A model generated the notes under the pieces. It made no database searches. It was not told where the DNA came from and saw only the letters and a program-made list of their open reading frames with translations. The translations under genes and the position numbers were made by a program. Below are positions 6,778-29,342 of a stretch of DNA of 34,033 bases, in pieces. Origin of the DNA: Omnitrophica WOR_2 bacterium RIFCSPHIGHO2_02_FULL_67_20 (GTDB lineage Bacteria > Omnitrophota > Gorgyraeia > Aquiviventales > Aquiviventaceae); the NCBI GenBank assembly GCA_001805695.1, contig MHGT01000019.1, positions 45,438 to 79,470 of the forward strand. Reading direction: 5' to 3'. Numbering within the stretch: the first letter of the stretch is position 1; every line of letters begins with the position of its first letter.

Positions 6778-8961
6778 CTACTGGGCGTGGGGGAGGTTGT
6801 CAACGCTCCGGACTCTCGCAATCCGCTTCAGCTCAGGCAGATACTGCAACGCCACCTCTTCGCCGCGGCGGATGAAGGGCTCGGGGTTGAAGAACTCGAG
6901 CCAGTGGGAGCCGGGGACCGTCGGGCGCAGCGTGAGGTCCGCTTCGCGGCAGGCGACCTCGGCGATCTGGTACTCCATCGCCTGCATCGAGCGCATGATG
7001 ACGTCGAAGACGAGCGGTGACACGGAGCGGACGAGCTCCTGCCGGACCCGGAACAGGAGCCGGAACGGCAGGCTGCGCGAGGCCAGCTGCATGTCCCGCT
7101 CGGCGCGGCGGCGCTGCACGTCCTGCTGGTGCGCCGTGATCTCCGCGGTCGTCGGGAAGACGTTCACCGCGATCACGTGGTGCGCCCCGGAGCGCTTCAA
7201 CACGCTCACCGGAATCGGGTTGACGACGCCGCCATCGAGGCACAGCCTGCCCTTCCGGACGACCGGCTTGAAAATGCCGGGGATGGACACCGACGCCCGC
7301 ACCGCATCGGCGATCGACCCCGAGTCGAAGATGACCTCCTCGCGCGCGATGGGGTTGGCCGCCACGATCTTCAGCGGCAGCCACGTGTCGTCGAACGTCT
7401 TGCCGGCGAAGTCCTGCTCCAGCTTGGCCATGAGGCGCGCGCCCTGGATCGGGCCGCCGGCGAGCGGGCCCAGCACCACGCCGACCGCCACGCACACGAT
7501 GAACCCGAAGAGCAGCCCGGTCCAGAATTCCGCCAGCCACCCCACCAGGATGCCGGCTGAGAGGCCGATGAGCACGCTGAAGAGCGGAATCCCCAAGTCC
7601 AGCATAAAGAGCTTGCGGATGTCCCAGGGGTTCTTGAAGCTCAGCGCCATCCGCTCCAGGTCGTCGGCGGAACGGCCCGAGGCCCAGAGGCCTGCGATAA
7701 ACGCCCCGATGCTGGAGCCCGCGATGAGGTCGATCGGGATCTGCTCGCGCTCGATGACTTTGAGGACCCCAATGTGCGCCAGCCCGAGCGCCGCCCCGGA
7801 GCCGAGCGCTAGCCCGACGAGCTGGCCGCCCAGCTCGCGGGCGATGCGCCGCACCGTCCGCGCATAGGCCGTGGCCGGCTGCTCCATCATCTGCCGCAGC
7901 CGGTCGGGCAGCTGAGCGCCTTCCAGCTCGTCGGCATGGGGCAGGACGACCGCGACGGGCTGCTCCATCAGCGCCGCCGCGTCCGGCGGGCTGAGCTGCC
8001 ATTCGCCGGTCCGGGCCAGCTGGTTCAGGACCACCTTGATGCGCTGCTCGGCCGGCCCGACCGACGCGTGGAGCTGGTGGATGAGGGCGTTCGTGCGGAT
8101 GATGTGCTCCTTCTGGGGATCGGTCAGGAGATAGACGAGGTCCGACTGGGTCAGCGCCTTCAAGACCTGGCTGTTCAGCTCGACCGGCAAATCGAGGAGG
8201 ACGTAGTGGAACCGGTTGGTCAGCGAGCTGAGGAGCGGCGCGATCGCCTGCTCTCCGCCCGGCTCGGCGAGGAGTGCCTTGGCGGGCAGCAGGTCGTGGC
8301 CAAGCGGGTGGGGGACAATCGCCCCCTCAGCCGGCTCGCCTTCGGCAGTCACCGGAAGCAGCCGCCCGGCCCGGCCGGCGGCGCCGAAGTCGACCACGAT
8401 GACGCTCCGTCCGGTTTCATGCCGCAGCGACACCGCCAGCGCGGCGGCGAAGGACGTCCGCCCCACCTGCTTGACGGCGCTGTACACGGCGACGATGGTG
8501 GCATCCGAGAACTCCCCACCCCGGTTGCTGGTGCGCAGCCGCCGCGAGAGCGACCGGCTCAGGTACAGGACGAGCGACGGGATGCGGTTGATGACCTCTT
8601 CGAAATCTTTCTTCTGGAGCTGGAGGATGAGCGCGTCGTTGAGCGCCTGGATGGTGGCGGAGTGGGTCTCGCCGATGAGGAGCGAGATCTCGCCGAACGA
8701 GTCGCCGTTGTGGAGGACCGTCAGCGTCCGCTCCTCCCCCTGCGCCGTCCGGGTGAAGACGCGCACGCGCCCGGAGCTGATGATGTAGAACGCGTCCGCC
8801 GAGTCGCCCTCGCGGTAGACGAGCTCGCCCTTCTTGTACTCGACGAGGCGGGTCCGGTCGGCGATGAGATGCAGCTGGTCCTCGGTGCAGGACGCGAAGA
8901 CGGGGACGCGCCGCAGAATGACGAGCTTGTCCTGCGGGTGCGGGGGCTCAAAGGTGGTCAT
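6778..8961 (-). CDS. Cyclic-nucleotide-binding / degenerate ParA-MinD-like / patatin-like phospholipase fusion
   Basis: N-terminal cNMP-binding fold (GELVYREGDSADAFYIISSGRVRVF...NGDSFGEISLL); middle domain VYSAVKQVGRTSFAAALAVSLRHETGRSVIVVDFG; patatin GLALGSGAALGLAHIGVLKVIE, GSSIG, LCLDGGVVNPIP. ATGA overlap with GDPD stop. Confidence 0.88.
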   Translation of the reverse strand: MTTFEPPHPQDKLVILRRVPVFASCTEDQLHLIADRTRLVEYKKGELVYREGDSADAFYIISSGRVRVFTRTAQGEERTLTVLHNGDSFGEISLLIGETHSATIQALNDALILQLQKKDFEEVINRIPSLVLYLSRSLSRRLRTSNRGGEFSDATIVAVYSAVKQVGRTSFAAALAVSLRHETGRSVIVVDFGAAGRAGRLLPVTAEGEPAEGAIVPHPLGHDLLPAKALLAEPGGEQAIAPLLSSLTNRFHYVLLDLPVELNSQVLKALTQSDLVYLLTDPQKEHIIRTNALIHQLHASVGPAEQRIKVVLNQLARTGEWQLSPPDAAALMEQPVAVVLPHADELEGAQLPDRLRQMMEQPATAYARTVRRIARELGGQLVGLALGSGAALGLAHIGVLKVIEREQIPIDLIAGSSIGAFIAGLWASGRSADDLERMALSFKNPWDIRKLFMLDLGIPLFSVLIGLSAGILVGWLAEFWTGLLFGFIVCVAVGVVLGPLAGGPIQGARLMAKLEQDFAGKTFDDTWLPLKIVAANPIAREEVIFDSGSIADAVRASVSIPGIFKPVVRKGRLCLDGGVVNPIPVSVLKRSGAHHVIAVNVFPTTAEITAHQQDVQRRRAERDMQLASRSLPFRLLFRVRQELVRSVSPLVFDVIMRSMQAMEYQIAEVACREADLTLRPTVPGSHWLEFFNPEPFIRRGEEVALQYLPELKRIARVRSVDNLPHAQ

Positions 8962-9719
8962 CGGCTGATTCGCGCCAGCCGCGCGGGATCGTTGGTGAAG
9001 ATGCCGTCCACTCCCATCCGTGTGAGCCGGCGCGCCGCGCGGACCTCGTCCACCGTCCACGCGTGGACCCGCAGGCCGGCGGCGTGGGCCGCGGCGACCC
9101 GGCGGGGGGTCACGAGCGTATGAAAGGGGTGCCAGGCGGCACAGCCGAGCCGGATCGCCTGCCGAAGCGAACGGTCCGGCTGAGCGCGGCAGATGAGCGC
9201 CCGGGGGCGGCGCGAGGACGCGGCCAGACGGATCAGACCGGGGTCAAAGGAGGACAGGAGAATGCGTCGTTGTTTGGGGACATGCCGGAGCAGCCGCAGG
9301 AGCCGGCGGATGAGCGGCCGGGGTGCCGCGGTCCGCTTCAGCTCCAGGTTCACGCCCATGCGCGGCGGGATGCGGCGGAGCGCCTGGGACACCAGCAAGA
9401 TACGCTCGCCCGAGAACCGTGGATGGAACCAGCCGCCCGCGTCGAGCCGGGCTGCGTCCGCATAGCGCGTGTGCGTCAACACTCCTCGTCCGTCCGTCGT
9501 CCGTTCCAGCCGCTTGTCGTGGAAGATCACCAGCCGGCCGTCGAGCGTCACTTGGACGTCCAGCTCGACCATGCCCGCACCCGCGCGCGCAGCCTCGCGG
9601 ATCGCGGCCGCCGTGCTCTCCGGAGCCCTCGCCGAGGCACCCCGGTGGGCGATGATGATGGGGTGTGACCCCGCATCGTGGGCATATGATAATATCACGC
9701 CGCCGCGGCCCGCGCTCAT
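8958..9719 (-). CDS. Glycerophosphodiester phosphodiesterase (GDPD)
   Basis: IIAHRGASARAPESTAAAIREAARAGAGMVELDVQVTLDGRLVIFHDKRLERTTDGRG. Confidence 0.93.
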   Translation of the reverse strand: MSAGRGGVILSYAHDAGSHPIIIAHRGASARAPESTAAAIREAARAGAGMVELDVQVTLDGRLVIFHDKRLERTTDGRGVLTHTRYADAARLDAGGWFHPRFSGERILLVSQALRRIPPRMGVNLELKRTAAPRPLIRRLLRLLRHVPKQRRILLSSFDPGLIRLAASSRRPRALICRAQPDRSLRQAIRLGCAAWHPFHTLVTPRRVAAAHAAGLRVHAWTVDEVRAARRLTRMGVDGIFTNDPARLARISR

Positions 9720-9820
9720 CCCACCACCTGCCTCGGTCCGCCGGAGGCGGACCGGACAACAACAGTGGCATCCGCGTGGGTTGTCCCGGCCTTCGGCCGA
9801 GAGGCAGGTGGTGGGATCAT
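9716..9820 (-). repeat. ATCCCACCACCTG-type structured inverted repeat, copy A, with bridging micro-ORF (34 aa)
   Basis: 17-bp perfect outer stem ATCCCACCACCTGCCTC/GAGGCAGGTGGTGGGAT enclosing three stems. Micro-ORF MIPPPASRPKAGTTHADATVVVRSASGGPRQVVG* starts in ATGA at the alpha/beta-hydrolase stop and ends in ATGA at the GDPD start. Confidence 0.93.
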
Positions 9821-10674
9821 CCCGTCAGCGCCCGTGAAAAAAAGTTCGCCACCCGGGCGCAGTACTCCTCCGGGTGGCGGGCGAACATCCCGACGTGCGC
9901 CACCGTCGGCTCGTACCAGCGCTCCTTCGGACCGGCCCACCGCTCGTAGAACTCCTGCCCGAGGATCGGCGCCACGCGCTGGTCTTCCCCGCCCTGAATC
10001 GCGAGCAGCGGCTGGCGCAGCCGCGGCGCCAGTGTTACCGGGTCGAGCCGAGACAAGCGCCGGCCGAGTGTGAGCTGAAGGCCCCACCACGCAAGCCAGG
10101 CCGCCAGCGCAGCGACGTCGCCGTCGCGCTGGATGAGAGCGCGGCGGAGCACCGGAAAGAATCGTGAATAGGGAGAATCGGCGACCACCGCGCGCACGTC
10201 CGGATCGCGCGCCGCCATCTGGCACGCCACCGCGGCTCCCATGGACAGGCCGAGCACGCCGGCCGGCACGCGGGCCGCCCCCTCCCGCATGCGCGCCCAC
10301 CGGAGCACGGTCAGCCCGTCCTCCGTTTCGCGCACGCCGAGCGTGCAGGGACCGGGCCGCTCGCCGTGCCCGCGCAGCTCGAAGATCAGCGCCTCGTAGC
10401 CGCGCCGGCGCAGCCCGTCGGCGATGCCGAGGACCTGGTACCGGTTGGCGGAGTAGCCGTGACAGAGCAGGATGCGGCCGCGGGGAGCGGAGGACGGGGC
10501 CAGCTGCCACACGTCGAAACCAACACCGTCCGGCGCGCGCAGGGTGTGCGAGGTGGACGCGGGCGCGGGCGTCGGCGGCGGGATGGGCCGGCGCTCAGGA
10601 TAGAGGAGCCGCCGGCTCAACAACCCCGCCCACCCCGCGAGGCCGAGTCCCAGGAGTGCCAGGAACCAGATCAA
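9817..10674 (-). CDS. Alpha/beta hydrolase with N-terminal membrane segment
   Basis: MIWFLALLGLGLAGWAGLL membrane segment; RILLCHGYSANRYQ; GVLGLSMGAAVACQ nucleophile elbow; terminal D/H region. Confidence 0.85.
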   Translation of the reverse strand: MIWFLALLGLGLAGWAGLLSRRLLYPERRPIPPPTPAPASTSHTLRAPDGVGFDVWQLAPSSAPRGRILLCHGYSANRYQVLGIADGLRRRGYEALIFELRGHGERPGPCTLGVRETEDGLTVLRWARMREGAARVPAGVLGLSMGAAVACQMAARDPDVRAVVADSPYSRFFPVLRRALIQRDGDVAALAAWLAWWGLQLTLGRRLSRLDPVTLAPRLRQPLLAIQGGEDQRVAPILGQEFYERWAGPKERWYEPTVAHVGMFARHPEEYCARVANFFSRALTG

Positions 10675-17458: not shown

Positions 17459-18070
17459 CTACCGCGCCGCTCGTCCGCGGCCGAAGCGGTGCTCGGTGCC
17501 CTGCCGGAGGCGCTGGATGTTGGCGCGGTGCCGGACCGCGATGAGGAGCGCGAGGGCGCCGCCGAGGAGGATTTCCTCCGGCGGACGATGGAAGAGCGCT
17601 TGCGCGAGCGGCACCGTGGCCGCGGCGGCGAGCGAACCGACGGAGACGTAGCGCCAGGCGAGGAAGCACGCGAGCCACACCGTCGCGCACGCGAGCGCGA
17701 TGTCTGGGTACACGCCGACGAGGACGCCGATCGTCGTCGCCACGCCCTTGCCGCCCTGGAACTTCAGGAAGACGGGCGCCACGTGGCCGATGACCGCGGC
17801 GAGCCCGCAGGCGAACCGGAAGGCCGGCCCGGCGTCCGGCTGGAGGAGCGGTGCTACGAGGAGCGCCGCCGCGAGGCCCTTGGCCAGGTCGACGGCAAAC
17901 ACGAACGCGCCGGCCGTGAAGCCGGCGGAGCGCGTCACGTTCGTGGCACCCACGTTGCCGCTGCCGACGCTGCGAATGTCCACCCGCTTGAGCCGCTTCA
18001 CGACGAGGTACGCGGTCGGGATCGAGCCGAGGAGATAGGAGCCCGCCAGCGCGATCAGCCACGCCGCCAT
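17459..18070 (-). CDS. plsY: Glycerol-3-phosphate acyltransferase PlsY
   Basis: MAAWLIALAGSYLLGSIPTAYLVVKRLKRVDIRSVGSGNVGATNVTRSAG...FLKFQGGKGVATTIGVLVGVYP. Confidence 0.96.
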   Translation of the reverse strand: MAAWLIALAGSYLLGSIPTAYLVVKRLKRVDIRSVGSGNVGATNVTRSAGFTAGAFVFAVDLAKGLAAALLVAPLLQPDAGPAFRFACGLAAVIGHVAPVFLKFQGGKGVATTIGVLVGVYPDIALACATVWLACFLAWRYVSVGSLAAAATVPLAQALFHRPPEEILLGGALALLIAVRHRANIQRLRQGTEHRFGRGRAAR

Positions 18071-19443
18071 GCCGCCCTCCGTCGCTGGCGGCTTGCCCGC
18101 TCCTGGTGCGAGACGTCCATCACGACCAGGCGGACCGGCACCCCGACCAGCGCCGGCGAGGCGTGCAGGCGCTTCAAGAGGTAGTGCCGGTATGGTCGCG
18201 GCAGGGCGCCGATGGGGCGCGTGGCGAGCTCCACCCGCGCCGGGCGCCCCGGCACCCACCGCGCCCGCTCGAGGCGGATCGCGCGCCCCCGCAGACGGGG
18301 TGGGGCGTGGGCGGCCCATGCCTGCCGCATCAGCGCCTCGCAGGCGCCATCCGAGAGCCCGTCGCGCAGGGCGCGCGCGACCCGCATCGCCTCGGCGACC
18401 GCGCGCATGACTTGAAACCCGGTCTTGGCCGACACCGGCAGGACTGGCGCTGCGGACGCGTCGGGCAGCAAATCCCGAATCGACTTCGCGAGTGCCTCTT
18501 CGCTGAGACGGCGCCGGCCGCCGGGAGCGCCGGGTGCCTGCATGAGATCCCACTTGTTCAGGAGCACCACGATGCCGCAGCCCGTCCCGCACAACCGGCA
18601 GAGCAGTCGCCGGTCGTCGCTGGTGATGCCCTGCGTCGCGTCCAGCACCACCAGCGCCACGTCGCAGCGCTGGATGGCCTCCATGGCGCGCGACATGGAG
18701 AAGGTATCGATGGGGTCGGTGACTTTCCGCCGGTGGCGCAGGCCCGCCGTGTCGATCAGCGCGATGGCGGCGCCCTGGAACTGGAGGCTGGATTCGACCG
18801 CGTCCCGCGTCGTGCCCGGCGCGTCGCTGACAATCGCCCGCTCGTCCCGCAGCAGCGCGTTGAAGAGCGAGGATTTGCCGACGTTCTGCCGCCCGACGAT
18901 CGCGAGGGCCAGCTCCGGCGCCGGCCCGCCGCCGGCCGAGGGCGGGCTGAAGCGGTCCACGAGGACATCGAGCAGATCGCCGGTGCCGGTGCCGTGCAGG
19001 GCCGACACGGCCGCCGTGTGCGGAGCACCCAGCGAGAAGAAGTCCGGCGGCACGACGGGCCGCTCGTCCGCCTTGTTCACCGCGAGCAGGACCGGCTTCC
19101 CCGTCCCGCGCAGGACGTCCATCACCATCGCGTCGGCCGGCAGCAGCCCGTCCCGGGCGTCGCAGACGAAGAGGAACCCCTCCGCCTCCTCCAGCGCCCG
19201 GCGGATCTGGCGCTGGACCGAGGCGGGCAGCCCCTCGGTGCGGGAAAACTCGAGGCCACCCGTGTCCAGCAGCCGCAGGACCCTCCCCCGCCACTCCACC
19301 CGCCCCTCGATCCGGTCGCGCGTGGTGCCGCGCGTCGTGGAGACGACCGCCCGGCGCTCGCCGAGGAGGCGGTTGAACAGGGTGGACTTGCCGACATTGG
19401 GGCGGCCGACGATGGCGATAAGGGGTGGACGGTTCGTGCTCAT
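18055..19443 (-). CDS. der: GTPase Der (EngA)
   Basis: Two G domains: IAIVGRPNVGKSTLFN...TTRGTTRDR and AIVGRQNVGKSSLFN...DAPGTTRDAVES. Start at MSTNRPP. Confidence 0.96.
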   Translation of the reverse strand: MSTNRPPLIAIVGRPNVGKSTLFNRLLGERRAVVSTTRGTTRDRIEGRVEWRGRVLRLLDTGGLEFSRTEGLPASVQRQIRRALEEAEGFLFVCDARDGLLPADAMVMDVLRGTGKPVLLAVNKADERPVVPPDFFSLGAPHTAAVSALHGTGTGDLLDVLVDRFSPPSAGGGPAPELALAIVGRQNVGKSSLFNALLRDERAIVSDAPGTTRDAVESSLQFQGAAIALIDTAGLRHRRKVTDPIDTFSMSRAMEAIQRCDVALVVLDATQGITSDDRRLLCRLCGTGCGIVVLLNKWDLMQAPGAPGGRRRLSEEALAKSIRDLLPDASAAPVLPVSAKTGFQVMRAVAEAMRVARALRDGLSDGACEALMRQAWAAHAPPRLRGRAIRLERARWVPGRPARVELATRPIGALPRPYRHYLLKRLHASPALVGVPVRLVVMDVSHQERASRQRRRAAWRRG

Positions 19444-19468
19444 GATGCGGGAACGGGACGCGGGACGC

Positions 19469-19594
19469 TCATCCCACCACCTGTTTGCCCCGCCAACGGC
19501 GGGGCTGGAATAAACCAATGAGACCGAACGTCCCGCCTGCCCGGTGAATTCCAGCGGGCTGCCTTCGGCAGCCCCGAACAGGTGGTGGGATCAA
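19469..19594 (-). repeat. ATCCCACCACCTG-type structured inverted repeat, copy B, with bridging micro-ORF (41 aa, TTG start)
   Basis: Outer stem ATCCCACCACCTGTT/AACAGGTGGTGGGAT, hairpins CCCCGCC-AAC-GGCGGGG, CTGGAAT...ATTCCAG, CGGGCTGCC-TTC-GGCAGCCCG. ORF MIPPPVRGCRRQPAGIHRAGGTFGLIGLFQPRRWRGKQVVG*. Confidence 0.9.
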
Positions 19595-19595
19595 C

Positions 19596-20144
19596 TCAGC
19601 TCAGCGCGCGGATACCCATGCGGACGTACATGGCCGCCGAGAGCAGGGTCAGCGCCGCGGCCGCCGCCAGCAGGGGCGTCGTCACGGCGGGCGGGCCGCC
19701 CAGGAGCACCGAGGGGATCACGAGCATTTGGGCGAAGGTCGTCGTCTTGCCCACGCGGCTCGGGTGGACGCTCCAGCGTCCCTTGATGACAAACAGTACC
19801 ACCGTGCCCGCCACGAGCAGGGCGTCCCGGCTGATGACGACGAGGTTGAACCACGCGGGAATGCGCATCCAGGCCGGCAGCCCCTGGATGACGGAACAGC
19901 TGATGAGCGCGCTGAGGATGAGCGTCTTGTCCGCGATCGGGTCGAGGAGGGTGCCCAGCTCGGTCTGCTGACGCTGGAGTCGGGCGAGGAACCCGTCGAT
20001 GGCGTCCGAGACGACCCCCACCGTGAAGAGCCCGAGCGCCAGGAAGCGGAGCCAGTCACGCTCCGGATGGTAATAGACCAGCGAGGCGACGATGGCCGGC
20101 GCCAATAAGATCCGGAAGATCGAGATCTTATTGGGTAAATTCAT
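19596..20144 (-). CDS. pgsA: CDP-diacylglycerol--glycerol-3-phosphate 3-phosphatidyltransferase-like
   Basis: MNLPNKISIFRILLAPAIVASLV...DAIDGFLARLQRQQTELGTLLDPIADKTL (CDP-alcohol phosphatidyltransferase signature DG..AR....G..LD...D). Confidence 0.93.
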   Translation of the reverse strand: MNLPNKISIFRILLAPAIVASLVYYHPERDWLRFLALGLFTVGVVSDAIDGFLARLQRQQTELGTLLDPIADKTLILSALISCSVIQGLPAWMRIPAWFNLVVISRDALLVAGTVVLFVIKGRWSVHPSRVGKTTTFAQMLVIPSVLLGGPPAVTTPLLAAAAALTLLSAAMYVRMGIRALS

Positions 20145-20290
20145 CCCACCACCTGCGCCTCACGGCGGCTCGTCGAATATCCCCGTAGGCCGCCGTGGCG
20201 GCGCGCGTCATCGCAATGGAACGAATCCGATCTAGGCCTGCACAACGCCGCGTCCCGCCGCAGGCGGGACGGCGCAGGTGGTGGGATCAT
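20141..20290 (-). repeat. ATCCCACCACCTG-type structured inverted repeat, copy C, with micro-ORF (49 aa)
   Basis: 17-bp perfect outer stem ATCCCACCACCTGCGCC/GGCGCAGGTGGTGGGAT, three internal stems (GTCCCGCC-GGCGGGAC; GCGGCG-CGCCGC; CACGGCGGC-GCCGCCGTG). ORF MIPPPAPSRLRRDAALCRPRSDSFHCDDARRHGGLRGYSTSRREAQVVG* ends in ATGA at pgsA start. Confidence 0.9.
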
Positions 20291-25481: not shown

Positions 25482-26785
25482 CGAATATGGCACAGCTCGG
25501 TGAGCCGCCTCGTCTCGGGCTCGCCGACCGCCCCCACGACCGCCAGGTGCATCCGCGGTGTTTCGAAGAGCTCGCGGGCGACGCGCCGGATGTCCCGCTC
25601 GGTCACCTTGGCCATGTGCGCGAGGAGCTCGTCCGGCTTCGCGATGCGCCCAAGTGTTACCGCCTGCTCGCCCATCCAGAGCATCTGGTCCATGGTGTCC
25701 TCCAGCCCCATGAGGAGCTGTCCCGCGTAGTAGTCCTTCGCCCGCCGCAGCTCGGCGCGCGGGATCGGGCCGCGCCGCACGCGGGAAAGCTCCGTGAAGA
25801 TCGTCGCCACCGTCTCCGCCAGCTTGCCCGTGTCGCAGCCCGCGTGGATGACGAAGGCGCCGGTGTCCTCGAACCGCTTGATCTGCGTGCCGATCTCGTA
25901 GACCAGCCCCCGCCGCTCCCGCACCTCGCGGAAGAGCCGCGAGGACATGTTCGCGCCCAGCATGACATGGAGCAGCTCCAGGGCGAACCGGGCCGGGTGC
26001 GTGCGCGGAATCGCGTAGGTGCCGACGCACAGGTGCGCCTGCTCGGTCGGCTTGTTCCACACGCGCACCTGCGGGCCCCGCCGGGGCCGGGGCGCGCGGA
26101 GGAACCGGCCGCGGGCTCCGCCTTTCGCACCCGTCGGGGCGGGGTGTTGGCCGGCGCCGAAGGCCCGCCGGATATGCCGCGTCGCCGCGCCGGGCTCCAC
26201 CGCCCCCGCCACCGTCACGAGGAGGTTGGCCGGCCGGTACATCCGCCGCCAGTAGCCGACGAGGTCGGCGCGCGTGATCCGGCGCACGGTGTCGATCGTC
26301 CCCGAGAGCAGCATCCCGAGCGGATGGTCGGGCCACAGGAGCTGGCTGAAGAGGTCGTGCACGTACTGGCCCGGCGCATCCTCGCACATGCGGATCTCTT
26401 CAAGGATGACCTCGCGCTCCTTTTCGATGTCCTGGGGGCTGAACCGCGGCCCGCGGACCATGTCCGCCAGCACGTCCACCGCCCGGCGCGCGTGGCGGTG
26501 CGGCACCTTCGCCAGGTAGCAGGTGAACTCTTCGGCGGTGAAGCCGTTCAGCATCCCGCCGACCCCCTCCACCTGCTGTTTGAGCTCCTCGCAGGAGCGC
26601 CGGCGCGTACCCTTGAAGAGCAGGTGCTCGAGGAAGTGCGAGATGCCCGCCACCGCGGGCAGCTCGTAGCGCCCGCCCGCCCGCGCCCAGACGCCGACTG
26701 CCACCGACTGGGCGTGCGGCATCGGCTTCAGGACCAGGCCCAGGCCGCCGGGCAAGGTGGAGACGTGGGAGGCCGGAGGGCTCAT
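25478..26785 (-). CDS. M16 family zinc peptidase (processing-protease type)
   Basis: GVWARAGGRYELPAVAGISHFLEHLLFKGT (HxxEH), VILEEIRMCEDAPGQYVHDLF. Confidence 0.95.
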   Translation of the reverse strand: MSPPASHVSTLPGGLGLVLKPMPHAQSVAVGVWARAGGRYELPAVAGISHFLEHLLFKGTRRRSCEELKQQVEGVGGMLNGFTAEEFTCYLAKVPHRHARRAVDVLADMVRGPRFSPQDIEKEREVILEEIRMCEDAPGQYVHDLFSQLLWPDHPLGMLLSGTIDTVRRITRADLVGYWRRMYRPANLLVTVAGAVEPGAATRHIRRAFGAGQHPAPTGAKGGARGRFLRAPRPRRGPQVRVWNKPTEQAHLCVGTYAIPRTHPARFALELLHVMLGANMSSRLFREVRERRGLVYEIGTQIKRFEDTGAFVIHAGCDTGKLAETVATIFTELSRVRRGPIPRAELRRAKDYYAGQLLMGLEDTMDQMLWMGEQAVTLGRIAKPDELLAHMAKVTERDIRRVARELFETPRMHLAVVGAVGEPETRRLTELCHIR

Positions 26786-27243
26786 CGAAAATTCATTCCA
26801 AATGATCTCGGGTTTTGAAGAGAACCCCCGGGACGCGCCATGTCGAGATACTGTTGGAGGATCAACTGCGCCGCCACCTGGTCGATGACCGCTTTCCGCT
26901 TGCGGCCGCGCGTGCCGATCTCCTGCAGCGCACGCGAGCCCTGCACCGTGGTCAGCCGCTCGTCGATGAGCTCCACGGGCATCGCGAGCCGCCGGCGGAG
27001 CTCGTCGGAAAACGCCGCGACCTTCCGGGCTTGCGGGCCACGCTCGCCGCGCATCGTGAGCGGCAGCCCCACGACCACCGTCCGCACGCCGTGCCGCTCG
27101 ACGAGCGCGCGCACCGCCTCCACGTCCTGCGACAGCCCCGTCCGCTCGAGGACGGTGAGCCGCTGCGCGGTCAGCCCCAGCGGGTCGCTGAGTGCGACCC
27201 CGATGCGCACGTCTCCCACGTCGAGGCCGAGCACGCGGGTCAT
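26782..27243 (-). CDS. ruvX: Holliday junction resolvase-like RuvX/YqgF
   Basis: MTRVLGLDVGDVRIGVALSDPLGLTAQ, VVVGLPLTMRGERG, LIDERLTTVQGSRAL. Confidence 0.94.
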   Translation of the reverse strand: MTRVLGLDVGDVRIGVALSDPLGLTAQRLTVLERTGLSQDVEAVRALVERHGVRTVVVGLPLTMRGERGPQARKVAAFSDELRRRLAMPVELIDERLTTVQGSRALQEIGTRGRKRKAVIDQVAAQLILQQYLDMARPGGSLQNPRSFGMNFR

Positions 27244-27344
27244 CCCACCACCTGCCTTGGTTCGCCGGAGACGAACCGGACACGGACGATGAGATGCGCG
27301 TGGTGTGTCCCGGCCTTCGGCCGGAAAGCAGGTGGTGGGATCAT
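27240..27344 (-). repeat. ATCCCACCACCTG-type structured inverted repeat, copy D, with bridging micro-ORF (34 aa)
   Basis: Same length as copy [38 protein letters not shown] from ATGA at trpA stop to ATGA at ruvX start. Confidence 0.93.
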
Positions 27345-28147
27345 ACCGCCTTCCGGAGACGCGCGACGAACGCCGCCGCGCGCCGGAGGGCCGCGCGGCC
27401 TCGCGCGAGCGCCATCGCCTGGATGAGCGCGCTGCCGACGATGACCCCGTCGGCGACGCGGGCCACCGCCGCGGCCTGGGCGCTCGTCGAAATGCCGAAG
27501 CCCACGCACACCGGCTTGGTCGTCAGCAGCTTGAGCTGGCGCACCCCGTGCACTAGGCCCGGCGGCAGCTCGCGTCGCGCGCCGGTCGTGCCGGCCACGG
27601 AGACGTAGTAGATGAACCCCTGCGCGGCGCGCGCGATCATCCGCAGCCGCGCAGGCGGGCTGGTGGGTGCCGCCAATAACACGGCGCAGAGCCGCTCGGC
27701 CGAGGTCGAGCGGCGCAGCAGCAGGCTTTCTTCGACCGGCAGGTCCGGCACGATGACGCCCGCCAGGCCGCTCGTCCGCGCCGAGCGCGCGAACGCGCGG
27801 ACCGCCTCCGGCGCGCCCCCGGGCCCGAACGACAGGACCGGGTTCCAGTACGTGAGCGCCACCACCGGGACGCGCAGTTGCCCGCGCACCGAGGCCACGG
27901 CGTCCAGCACCCGCGGCGGGGTCGCACCCCGCGCGAGCGCGCGCGACGAGGCCGCCTGGATGACCGGCCCGTCGGCGAGCGGGTCCGAAAACGGAATGCC
28001 GACCTCGATCACGTCCGCTCCGGCCTCCTGGAGCGCCAGGAGGAGTGGGCCGGTCGTGCGCAGGTCCGGGTCGCCCGCCATGATGAACGGGATGAGCGCC
28101 TTCCGGCCCGCGCCCCGGAGGCGCTCAAACGCGGCGGGCAGGTCCAT
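27341..28147 (-). CDS. trpA: Tryptophan synthase alpha subunit
   Basis: [84 protein letters not shown]. Confidence 0.97.
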
Positions 28148-29342
28148 TCGGGAAGAGCCGCTCGGCCATCGTCTGGACGTCTTTGTCGCCGCGCCCGGAG
28201 AGGCCGACGATGACAAGCGCGTTGCGCGGCAGGCGGCGAGCCAGCGGCTCCAGATAGCCGATGGCGTGCGCCGGCTCCAAGGCCGGCAGGATGCCCTCGG
28301 TGCGCGCGAGGAGCGCGGCACCCCGCAGGGCCGTCGCGTCGCTGGCGGCGGCGTACTCCGCGCGCTTCGCCAGCTGGTAGTAGGCATGCTCCGGCCCGAC
28401 GCCGGGATAGTCCAGGCCCGCCGAGATGGACTGGGTCTCCATCACCTGCCCGAACCGGTCCTGCAGGAGCAGGCTGCGTGAGCCGTGCAGGACGCCCGGC
28501 CGCCCCTTGACCAGCGTGGCGGCGTGATGCCCCGGGGTGAGCGATCGGCCGCCCGCCTCGACGCCGATCATCCGCACGCGCCGGTCGTTGCGGAACGGGT
28601 GGAAGAGGCCGATGGCGTTGGAGCCGCCGCCGACGCAGGCCAGCAACACGTCGGGCAGCCGGCCCGCCACTTTCCGGATTTGCCGGCGGGCTTCCTCGCC
28701 GATGACCGACTGGAAGTCGCGCACCAGGCGCGGGTACGGGTGCGGCCCGACGACGGAGCCGATGCAGTAGTGGGTCGTGCGCACCGTGGTCACCCAGTTG
28801 CGGATCGCGTCGTTGCAGGCGTCCTTGAGCGTGCGCGTGCCGCTGCGCACCGCGGTGACGCGAGCACCCAGCAGGCGCATCCGCACGACGTTGAGTGATT
28901 GGCGGCGCATGTCCTCCTCGCCCATGAACACCTCGCACTCGAGGCCGAAGAGGGCGGCCACCGTCGCGGTCGCGACCCCGTGCTGGCCCGCACCGGTTTC
29001 GGCGATGAGCCGCCGCTTGCCCATGCGCACGGCGAGCAGCCCCTGGCCGAGCGTGTTGTTGATCTTGTGGGCGCCGGTGTGCAGGAGGTCTTCCCGCTTG
29101 AGGTAGACGCGGACGCGGCCGAGTGAGCGGCTGAGGCGCTTGGCGAAGTAGAGGGGCGTCGGTCGGCCGGCGTACTGCGCGAGCAGCTCGCCGAGCTGGC
29201 GGCGGAAGCCGGAATCCCGGCGGGCCTCGGCGTAGGCGCGCTCGAGCTCATCCAGCGCGGCCATGACGGTCTCCGGGACGAACTTGCCCCCGAAGGGCCC
29301 GAAGTGGCCGGTGCGGTCTGGGAGGGTCGGTTGGAATCTCAT
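28125..29342 (-). CDS. trpB: Tryptophan synthase beta subunit
   Basis: [70 protein letters not shown]. Confidence 0.98.

Follow-up and report, generated by a model that had tools for sequence, protein, structure and literature searches.

Between minus-strand genes of the Omnitrophota MAG sequence analysed here (the window, 34,033 nucleotides) lie four copies of a foldable sequence, identical at their outermost letters and variable inside. The locus raises the question of what these copies are, why they stand where one gene ends and the next begins, and what moves them. The initial annotation described a four-copy intergenic element with a conserved outer stem and three internal hairpins, recognised no named family, and proposed selection on folded RNA or single-stranded DNA.

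Anatomy and distribution of the element

The four copies are present where they were first placed, and the count of four proved too low. Their terminal 13-mer has eight exact matches in the window and ten with up to two mismatches (0.8 expected). The whole MAG (844,662 bases, 42 contigs, 73% complete) contains 42 exact matches, mostly as inverted pairs 80-153 bp apart, against none for the reversed control, and holds about 25 copies. The outer stem is conserved as described, and calling it a stem was incomplete: it consists of perfect 12-bp terminal inverted repeats (TIR), TCCCACCACCTG...CAGGTGGTGGGA, enclosing three inner hairpins, and together with a target-site duplication (TSD) it identifies a mobile element. 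The true ends lie inside the limits first given; those limits match, to the base, the start and stop codons of mini-ORFs spanning the copies (Table 1). Each window copy is bordered by the direct repeat TCA, that is, TGA in the sense of the genes. In 130 of 151 distinct copies the 3-mers on the two sides are identical (TGA/TGA in 109, TAA/TAA in 11, other triplets in 10). This flanking repeat is a TSD of 3 bp.

Table 1. Positions of the element copies, their mini-ORFs and adjoining genes in the window, and of the long forms in relatives
Feature	Positions	Strand	Remarks
Element copy A	9719-9816	-	98 nt; 12-bp TIRs, three inner hairpins
Copy A mini-ORF	9716-9820	-	MIPPPASRPKAGTTHADATVVVRSASGGPRQVVG, then stop; ATG start from target, TGA stop from TSD
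Copy A TSD (TGA in sense)	9817-9819	-	stop of upstream alpha/beta hydrolase gene 9817-10674
Copy A second TSD (TGA)	9716-9718	-	with last A of TIR gives ATG-A, start of GDPD gene 8958-9719
Element copy B	19472-19590	-	119 nt
Copy B mini-ORF	19469-19594	-	TTG start; LIPPPVRG...GKQVVG, then stop
10-codon ORF	19440-19472	-	directly after copy B; ATGA-coupled to Der-like GTPase ORF 18055-19443
Element copy C	20144-20286	-	143 nt
Copy C mini-ORF	20141-20290	-	MIPPPAPSRLRR...REAQVVG, then stop
Gene started by new ATG of copy C	19596-20144	-	CDP-alcohol phosphatidyltransferase
Element copy D	27243-27340	-	98 nt; between trpA (27341-28387) and ruvX (26782-27243)
Copy D mini-ORF	27240-27344	-	C-terminal end EPRQVVG, then stop
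Long form L244	L244:757-1070		314 nt
Long form L292			317 nt
Long form L293			317 nt
Long form L294			317 nt
Long form L295			356 nt

The scan of one genome per GTDB species bore out the expectation of further copies in relatives. It yielded 94 stretches, whose titles almost all read Candidatus Omnitrophota or Omnitrophica; the exceptions are two titled Elusimicrobia (L062, L147) and one titled Planctomycetales (L121). The last is probably misbinned, because its flanking proteins are 66% and 87% identical to those of a syntenic locus of the window's MAG. No viral contig carrying the element was found by pattern search or by protein search. The lack of a named family also held, with no Rfam match in scans at the gathering threshold or under permissive settings. 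The TIR varies on both arms together (CCCC..GGGG and TCCCCCC..GGGGGGA within the window's MAG); the variants CCCACGCCCTG or CCCACCCCCTG occur in 8 of the 27 genomes of the family, and some of these genomes have few or no CACCACCTG copies.

The inner hairpins do stay paired while their letters change, as assessed on close copies and with shuffles. With the TIRs removed, folding of the 151 interiors still exceeds that of dinucleotide shuffles (median z -3.7, 134 below -2; -3.55, -4.88, -3.0 and -2.2 for window copies A to D). Close paralogues at separate loci differ mainly in their loops, as in L136/L106, where stem letters are mostly kept. Paired changes on two arms are found in near-identical copies, as a C-G to G-C exchange (L088/L076) or one added base per arm (L119/L114), and in L146/L110 an entire hairpin is swapped. 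Pairing kept through change is by itself no proof of selection on folded RNA, since quasipalindrome correction, a template switching within palindromes that changes both arms, can also produce it. The paired arm changes and the exchanged hairpin are what such a mutational process would give. As a full explanation of the kept pairing it is highly improbable, for it accounts neither for loops that vary beside mostly kept stem letters nor for the rules of frame and TSD given below.

Several other repeats were recorded. Bare TIR hairpins of 29-33 nt with TGA/TCA duplications are the minimal copies (contig C26:16786-16818 of the MAG; L040:2717-2745). A 2.26-kb TIR pair in genome G022, considered as a conventional transposon, is two separate short copies, and a 443-nt pair in G014, considered likewise, looks like a copy with a nested second repeat; the 443 nt at L257:1233-1675 are a copy apparently holding another inverted-repeat element (CTAGAACCGGCTTCATACATCC). 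Contigs C1, C8, C27 and C38 of the window's MAG carry other inverted repeats with possible 3-bp duplications, for example TTA-GGGGTCAGACCCC, GAC-AACAGTGTAAAG, TTA-GGGTGGTGCC and CCG-TTGAGCCCGTT.

Placement at start codons and the open reading frame

The copies are not merely intergenic, as was first thought: with a start codon on one side and a duplicated stop on the other, they are kept as open reading frames. The sites of the TGA copies are start codons (NTGA), most of which overlap the stop of the gene upstream. Their right arm rebuilds an ATG for the following gene, the right end reading CAGGTGGTGGG-ATG-A with a long ORF next in nearly all; in the window these are the genes for GDPD, the CDP-alcohol phosphatidyltransferase and ruvX and the 10-codon ORF coupled to the der-like gene. 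After collapsing at 70% identity, 75 non-redundant TGA copies remained, 56 of them with a length of 2 mod 3 (P = 3e-13). The frame from the NTG immediately left of the element to the duplicated TGA is open in 53 of these 56 (P = 9e-14); for the remaining five frames the figure is about 49%. Among copies from hosts with a GC content below 55%, it is open in 12 of 15, compared with 3-4 of 15 for the other sense frames. The left TGA serves as the stop of a long upstream ORF in 75 copies; of these, 65 fit the length rule, 64 of them with an open frame. All four window copies follow the rule of length and frame (lengths in Table 1). Where the left triplet is CTG, which rarely serves as a start codon, none of four copies obeys the length rule.

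The encoded peptides have the form MIPPP[A/V]...QVVG followed by a stop, from the codons NTG-ATC-CCA-CCA-CCT...CAG-GTG-GTG-GGA-TGA. Copies with a TSD other than TGA have a length of 0 mod 3 in nine of ten cases, several of them in frame within long ORFs, and the minority of copies located in genes are mostly in frame. The copies are translation-transparent, and the mini-ORF is probably translated. A translational bypass of the byp type is unnecessary because in-gene copies are mostly in frame. In a ribosomal protein operon of G022, a copy at L241:8368-9246 comes immediately after an rpsE-like gene, whose reading continues into the frame of the copy.

Orthologous empty sites have an intact ATGA or GTGA overlap (L114 versus L060, L096 versus contig C19 and L131 versus contig C22 of the MAG), and other orthologous junctions are occupied by unrelated elements. 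No target motif extending beyond A-TGA was found. An A stands at position -4 in 86% of used sites and 41% of generic junctions, the generic set including spurious ORF pairs of a GC-rich genome. The window's MAG contains 21,672 TGA/TCA trinucleotides, and inspection by eye revealed no loops that match the flanks as guides would. The crowding at start codons is a matter of targeting or of survival. On the simplest view, an insertion persists only if reading can go on across it, and the GIY-YIG-encoding form described below needs the NTG and TGA of its target for expression.

The structure behind the initial proposal of selection on folded RNA or single-stranded DNA is real, and folding alone does not explain the kept reading frame. 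A more specific version would treat the copies as functional RNA kept for regulation and not as selfish DNA: the outer stem would hide the Shine-Dalgarno-like AGGTGG beside the new ATG, and a ribosome that terminates upstream or translates the mini-ORF would open it, tuning the coupling of the two genes. Strong folding agrees with such a role, as does the position of nearly all TGA copies, which directly precede a start codon and have the right arm CAGGTGGTGGG-ATG. However, copies also lie in frame within genes, non-TGA duplications are varied, the flanked genes have no obvious functional theme, and orthologous junctions are empty or hold unrelated elements. Regulation may hold in part, as a consequence of insertion and not its origin; as the explanation of the family it is improbable.

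A GIY-YIG-encoding form and the movement of the family

A search of copy-rich relatives for widely spaced ends revealed a longer form. In G022, a 314-nt copy (Table 1) has an end-to-end frame that encodes a GIY-YIG protein (Pfam GIY-YIG, E = 7e-12). Homologues with 56-61% identity in G009, G010, G023 and G008 are likewise bounded by TIRs. The five long forms come from five genera, and all have TIRs, a TGA duplication, a length of 2 mod 3 and a single end-to-end ORF. Their coding DNA follows the folding plan of the short copies, with an outer stem, hairpins formed by coding arms (for example GGTTGAGCATGCG/CGCATGCTCAACC in L292) and, on the 3' side, a triloop hairpin. Tyr18, Tyr29, Arg39, His43 and Glu75 are invariant in the element proteins and correspond to the catalytic Tyr, Tyr, Arg, His and Glu of GIY-YIG enzymes, whose roles have been described for the enzyme family (PMC2988022). 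The protein model has a confident core (residues 15-97) with disordered TIR-encoded ends; among solved structures, UPF0213 BH0048 and SLX1, a structure-specific nuclease, are closest in fold. None of 30 other GIY-YIG loci in the same genomes has TIRs with a TSD. Related forms from other families of the class, again at start codons, are bounded by CCCCACCACCT, TCCCGCACCTTTT or CCCCGCACCTTYT, among others; L320 and L324, with lengths of 1 mod 3, go against the rule.

Further GIY-YIG arrangements were noted. In two genera a GIY-YIG element lies back to back with a CCCCACC hairpin element (L296:1451-1781, L297:1459-1775 and following) within a single outer TSD pair (TCA), possibly a composite unit. 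A second family of ends, CCCCGCACCTTYT...ARAAGGTGCGGGG (L326-L330, L346-L357), comprises GIY-YIG forms and short forms of 46-62 nt in 16 of 386 genomes of the class; its rebuilt start is GTG, and in L327, L328 and L330 the TSD seems to be TGAA (4 bp). Some other GIY-YIG genes of the class are flanked by short repeats resembling parts of tRNA genes (CCCCATCGTCTAGTGGCAGGACA; L310, L331), and one in G014 (L298) lies between GGGCGGACCCGCC repeats immediately before a tRNA-like sequence.

The family is mobile, with a TSD, translation-transparent placement and a recurrent GIY-YIG form of the same layout. We consider it probable that the short copies are its non-autonomous members and that the partner GIY-YIG nuclease does the moving. 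In the proposed mechanism, the full-length form (about 315-355 bp), whose ends are of the same kind as those of the short copies and which shares their stem-and-hairpin plan and open frame, would supply a nuclease with the fold of SLX1, a branch-cutting enzyme. The nuclease would recognise folded or inverted-repeat ends and cut them; it would read DNA structure, and the hairpins may be its substrate. It would cut the target with a 3-nt stagger, and gap filling would leave the TSD; the element ends would presumably be joined by host repair. Short copies retaining fold and frame would be moved in trans. Their insertions would be kept almost only where translation stays unbroken, either at NTGA starts, usually overlapping an upstream stop, as an extra mini-cistron with a rebuilt ATG-A, or in frame within genes. 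Several points count against the proposal. GIY-YIG enzymes are hydrolases and are not known to join DNA, and the well-studied ones leave 2-nt 3' ends, not 3 (PMC2988022). In G023 and G008 the inverted repeat of the GIY-YIG form differs slightly from that of the abundant short copies, and the short copies cannot clearly be derived in sequence from the GIY-YIG gene, apart from the ends and the hairpin plan. The lengths of L320 and L324 also count against it, as does the lack of the GIY-YIG form in the window's MAG and several copy-rich relatives.

The GIY-YIG gene could instead be a captured passenger in an ordinary MITE family moved by an unseen conventional transposase that makes a 3-bp TSD, for example of the DDE type. 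TIRs with a fixed 3-bp TSD are typical of cut-and-paste transposases, and several copy-rich MAGs lack the GIY-YIG form: none was found in the window's MAG, 73% complete, and no close match in G014, G021 and G007, most relatives being incomplete too. Against this reading, GIY-YIG forms of one layout recur: the family has them in five or more genera, and variants turn up in other families. Between such ends no ORF of another kind was found, and PF01609 and PF01797 are absent from the copy-rich, 90% complete G014. We consider a conventional MITE family unlikely. The Y1 and DDE_Tnp_1 families were also considered as drivers and rejected: they show no correlation with copy number, and Y1 is absent from the copy-rich G014 and G023.

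Relation to known systems and significance

Two described kinds come closest: free-standing homing endonucleases, treated below, and the Rickettsia palindromic elements (RPE; Ogata 2000, as described in PMC10969869 and PMC2229807), which by description have about 100-150 bp, 12-bp TIRs, hairpins, an open frame, in-frame insertion in genes and no known mobilizer. The Omnitrophota element is likewise palindromic and open in frame, with in-frame insertion in genes for a minority of copies. On the other hand, the TSD of RPE is listed as unknown (PMC2229807), whereas here it is a clear 3 bp; the Omnitrophota element prefers NTGA start/stop overlaps as a separate mini-cistron, has three separate inner hairpins, and belongs to a family whose full-length form encodes a GIY-YIG protein. 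The ORF-bearing MITEs of bacteria (ERIC, Correia/NEMIS, YPAL, RUP) are also small and foldable, with TIRs, TSD and often an ORF, and TIRs and a TSD of fixed size, confirmed by empty sites, are found here. Their usual presumed partner is an IS transposase, whereas the apparent partner here, with the same kind of ends, encodes a GIY-YIG nuclease and no known transposase, and the rule of frame and start codon is strict.

Free-standing GIY-YIG homing endonucleases, such as the T4 seg genes (PMC2988022), are small nucleases encoded as the sole gene between host genes, and the long form shares their catalytic domain with its conserved residues. However, they home to alleles by flank homology, with neither TIRs nor a 3-bp TSD and no non-autonomous hairpin derivatives at many unrelated sites, and the Omnitrophota copies occupy unrelated sites with both TIRs and TSD. 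REP/RAYT systems are palindromes too, dispersed by a nuclease of a single domain that may recognise them as folded DNA, but their enzyme is HUH/Y1, and they are extragenic, lacking a TSD and a translated frame. UPF0213 and SLX1 proteins share the fold of the element protein, but they are cellular or repair proteins without bounding inverted repeats. No description of TIR-bounded GIY-YIG elements in prokaryotes was found in the open-access literature; an earlier account elsewhere is possible.

What would set the family apart as a new kind is the GIY-YIG form; taken by themselves, the short copies would be a novel variety of coding palindromic MITE. On balance, we lean towards a new class of bacterial transposable element: a self-contained unit of about 315 bp whose sole protein is a GIY-YIG nuclease with start and stop provided by the target NTGA, whose DNA folds into a stem and three hairpins while coding, and which would seed non-autonomous, translation-transparent swarms through essential operons. 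If true, an enzyme class would be added to the short list of those that move DNA in bacteria, and few mobile elements that encode their own enzyme would be smaller. The long-standing question of how coding palindromes move, those of Rickettsia included, would gain an answer open to testing. By copying a stop/start overlap and remaining readable, mobile DNA would have a route into dense operons that leaves them unbroken, and new small proteins and linkers may arise from the element.
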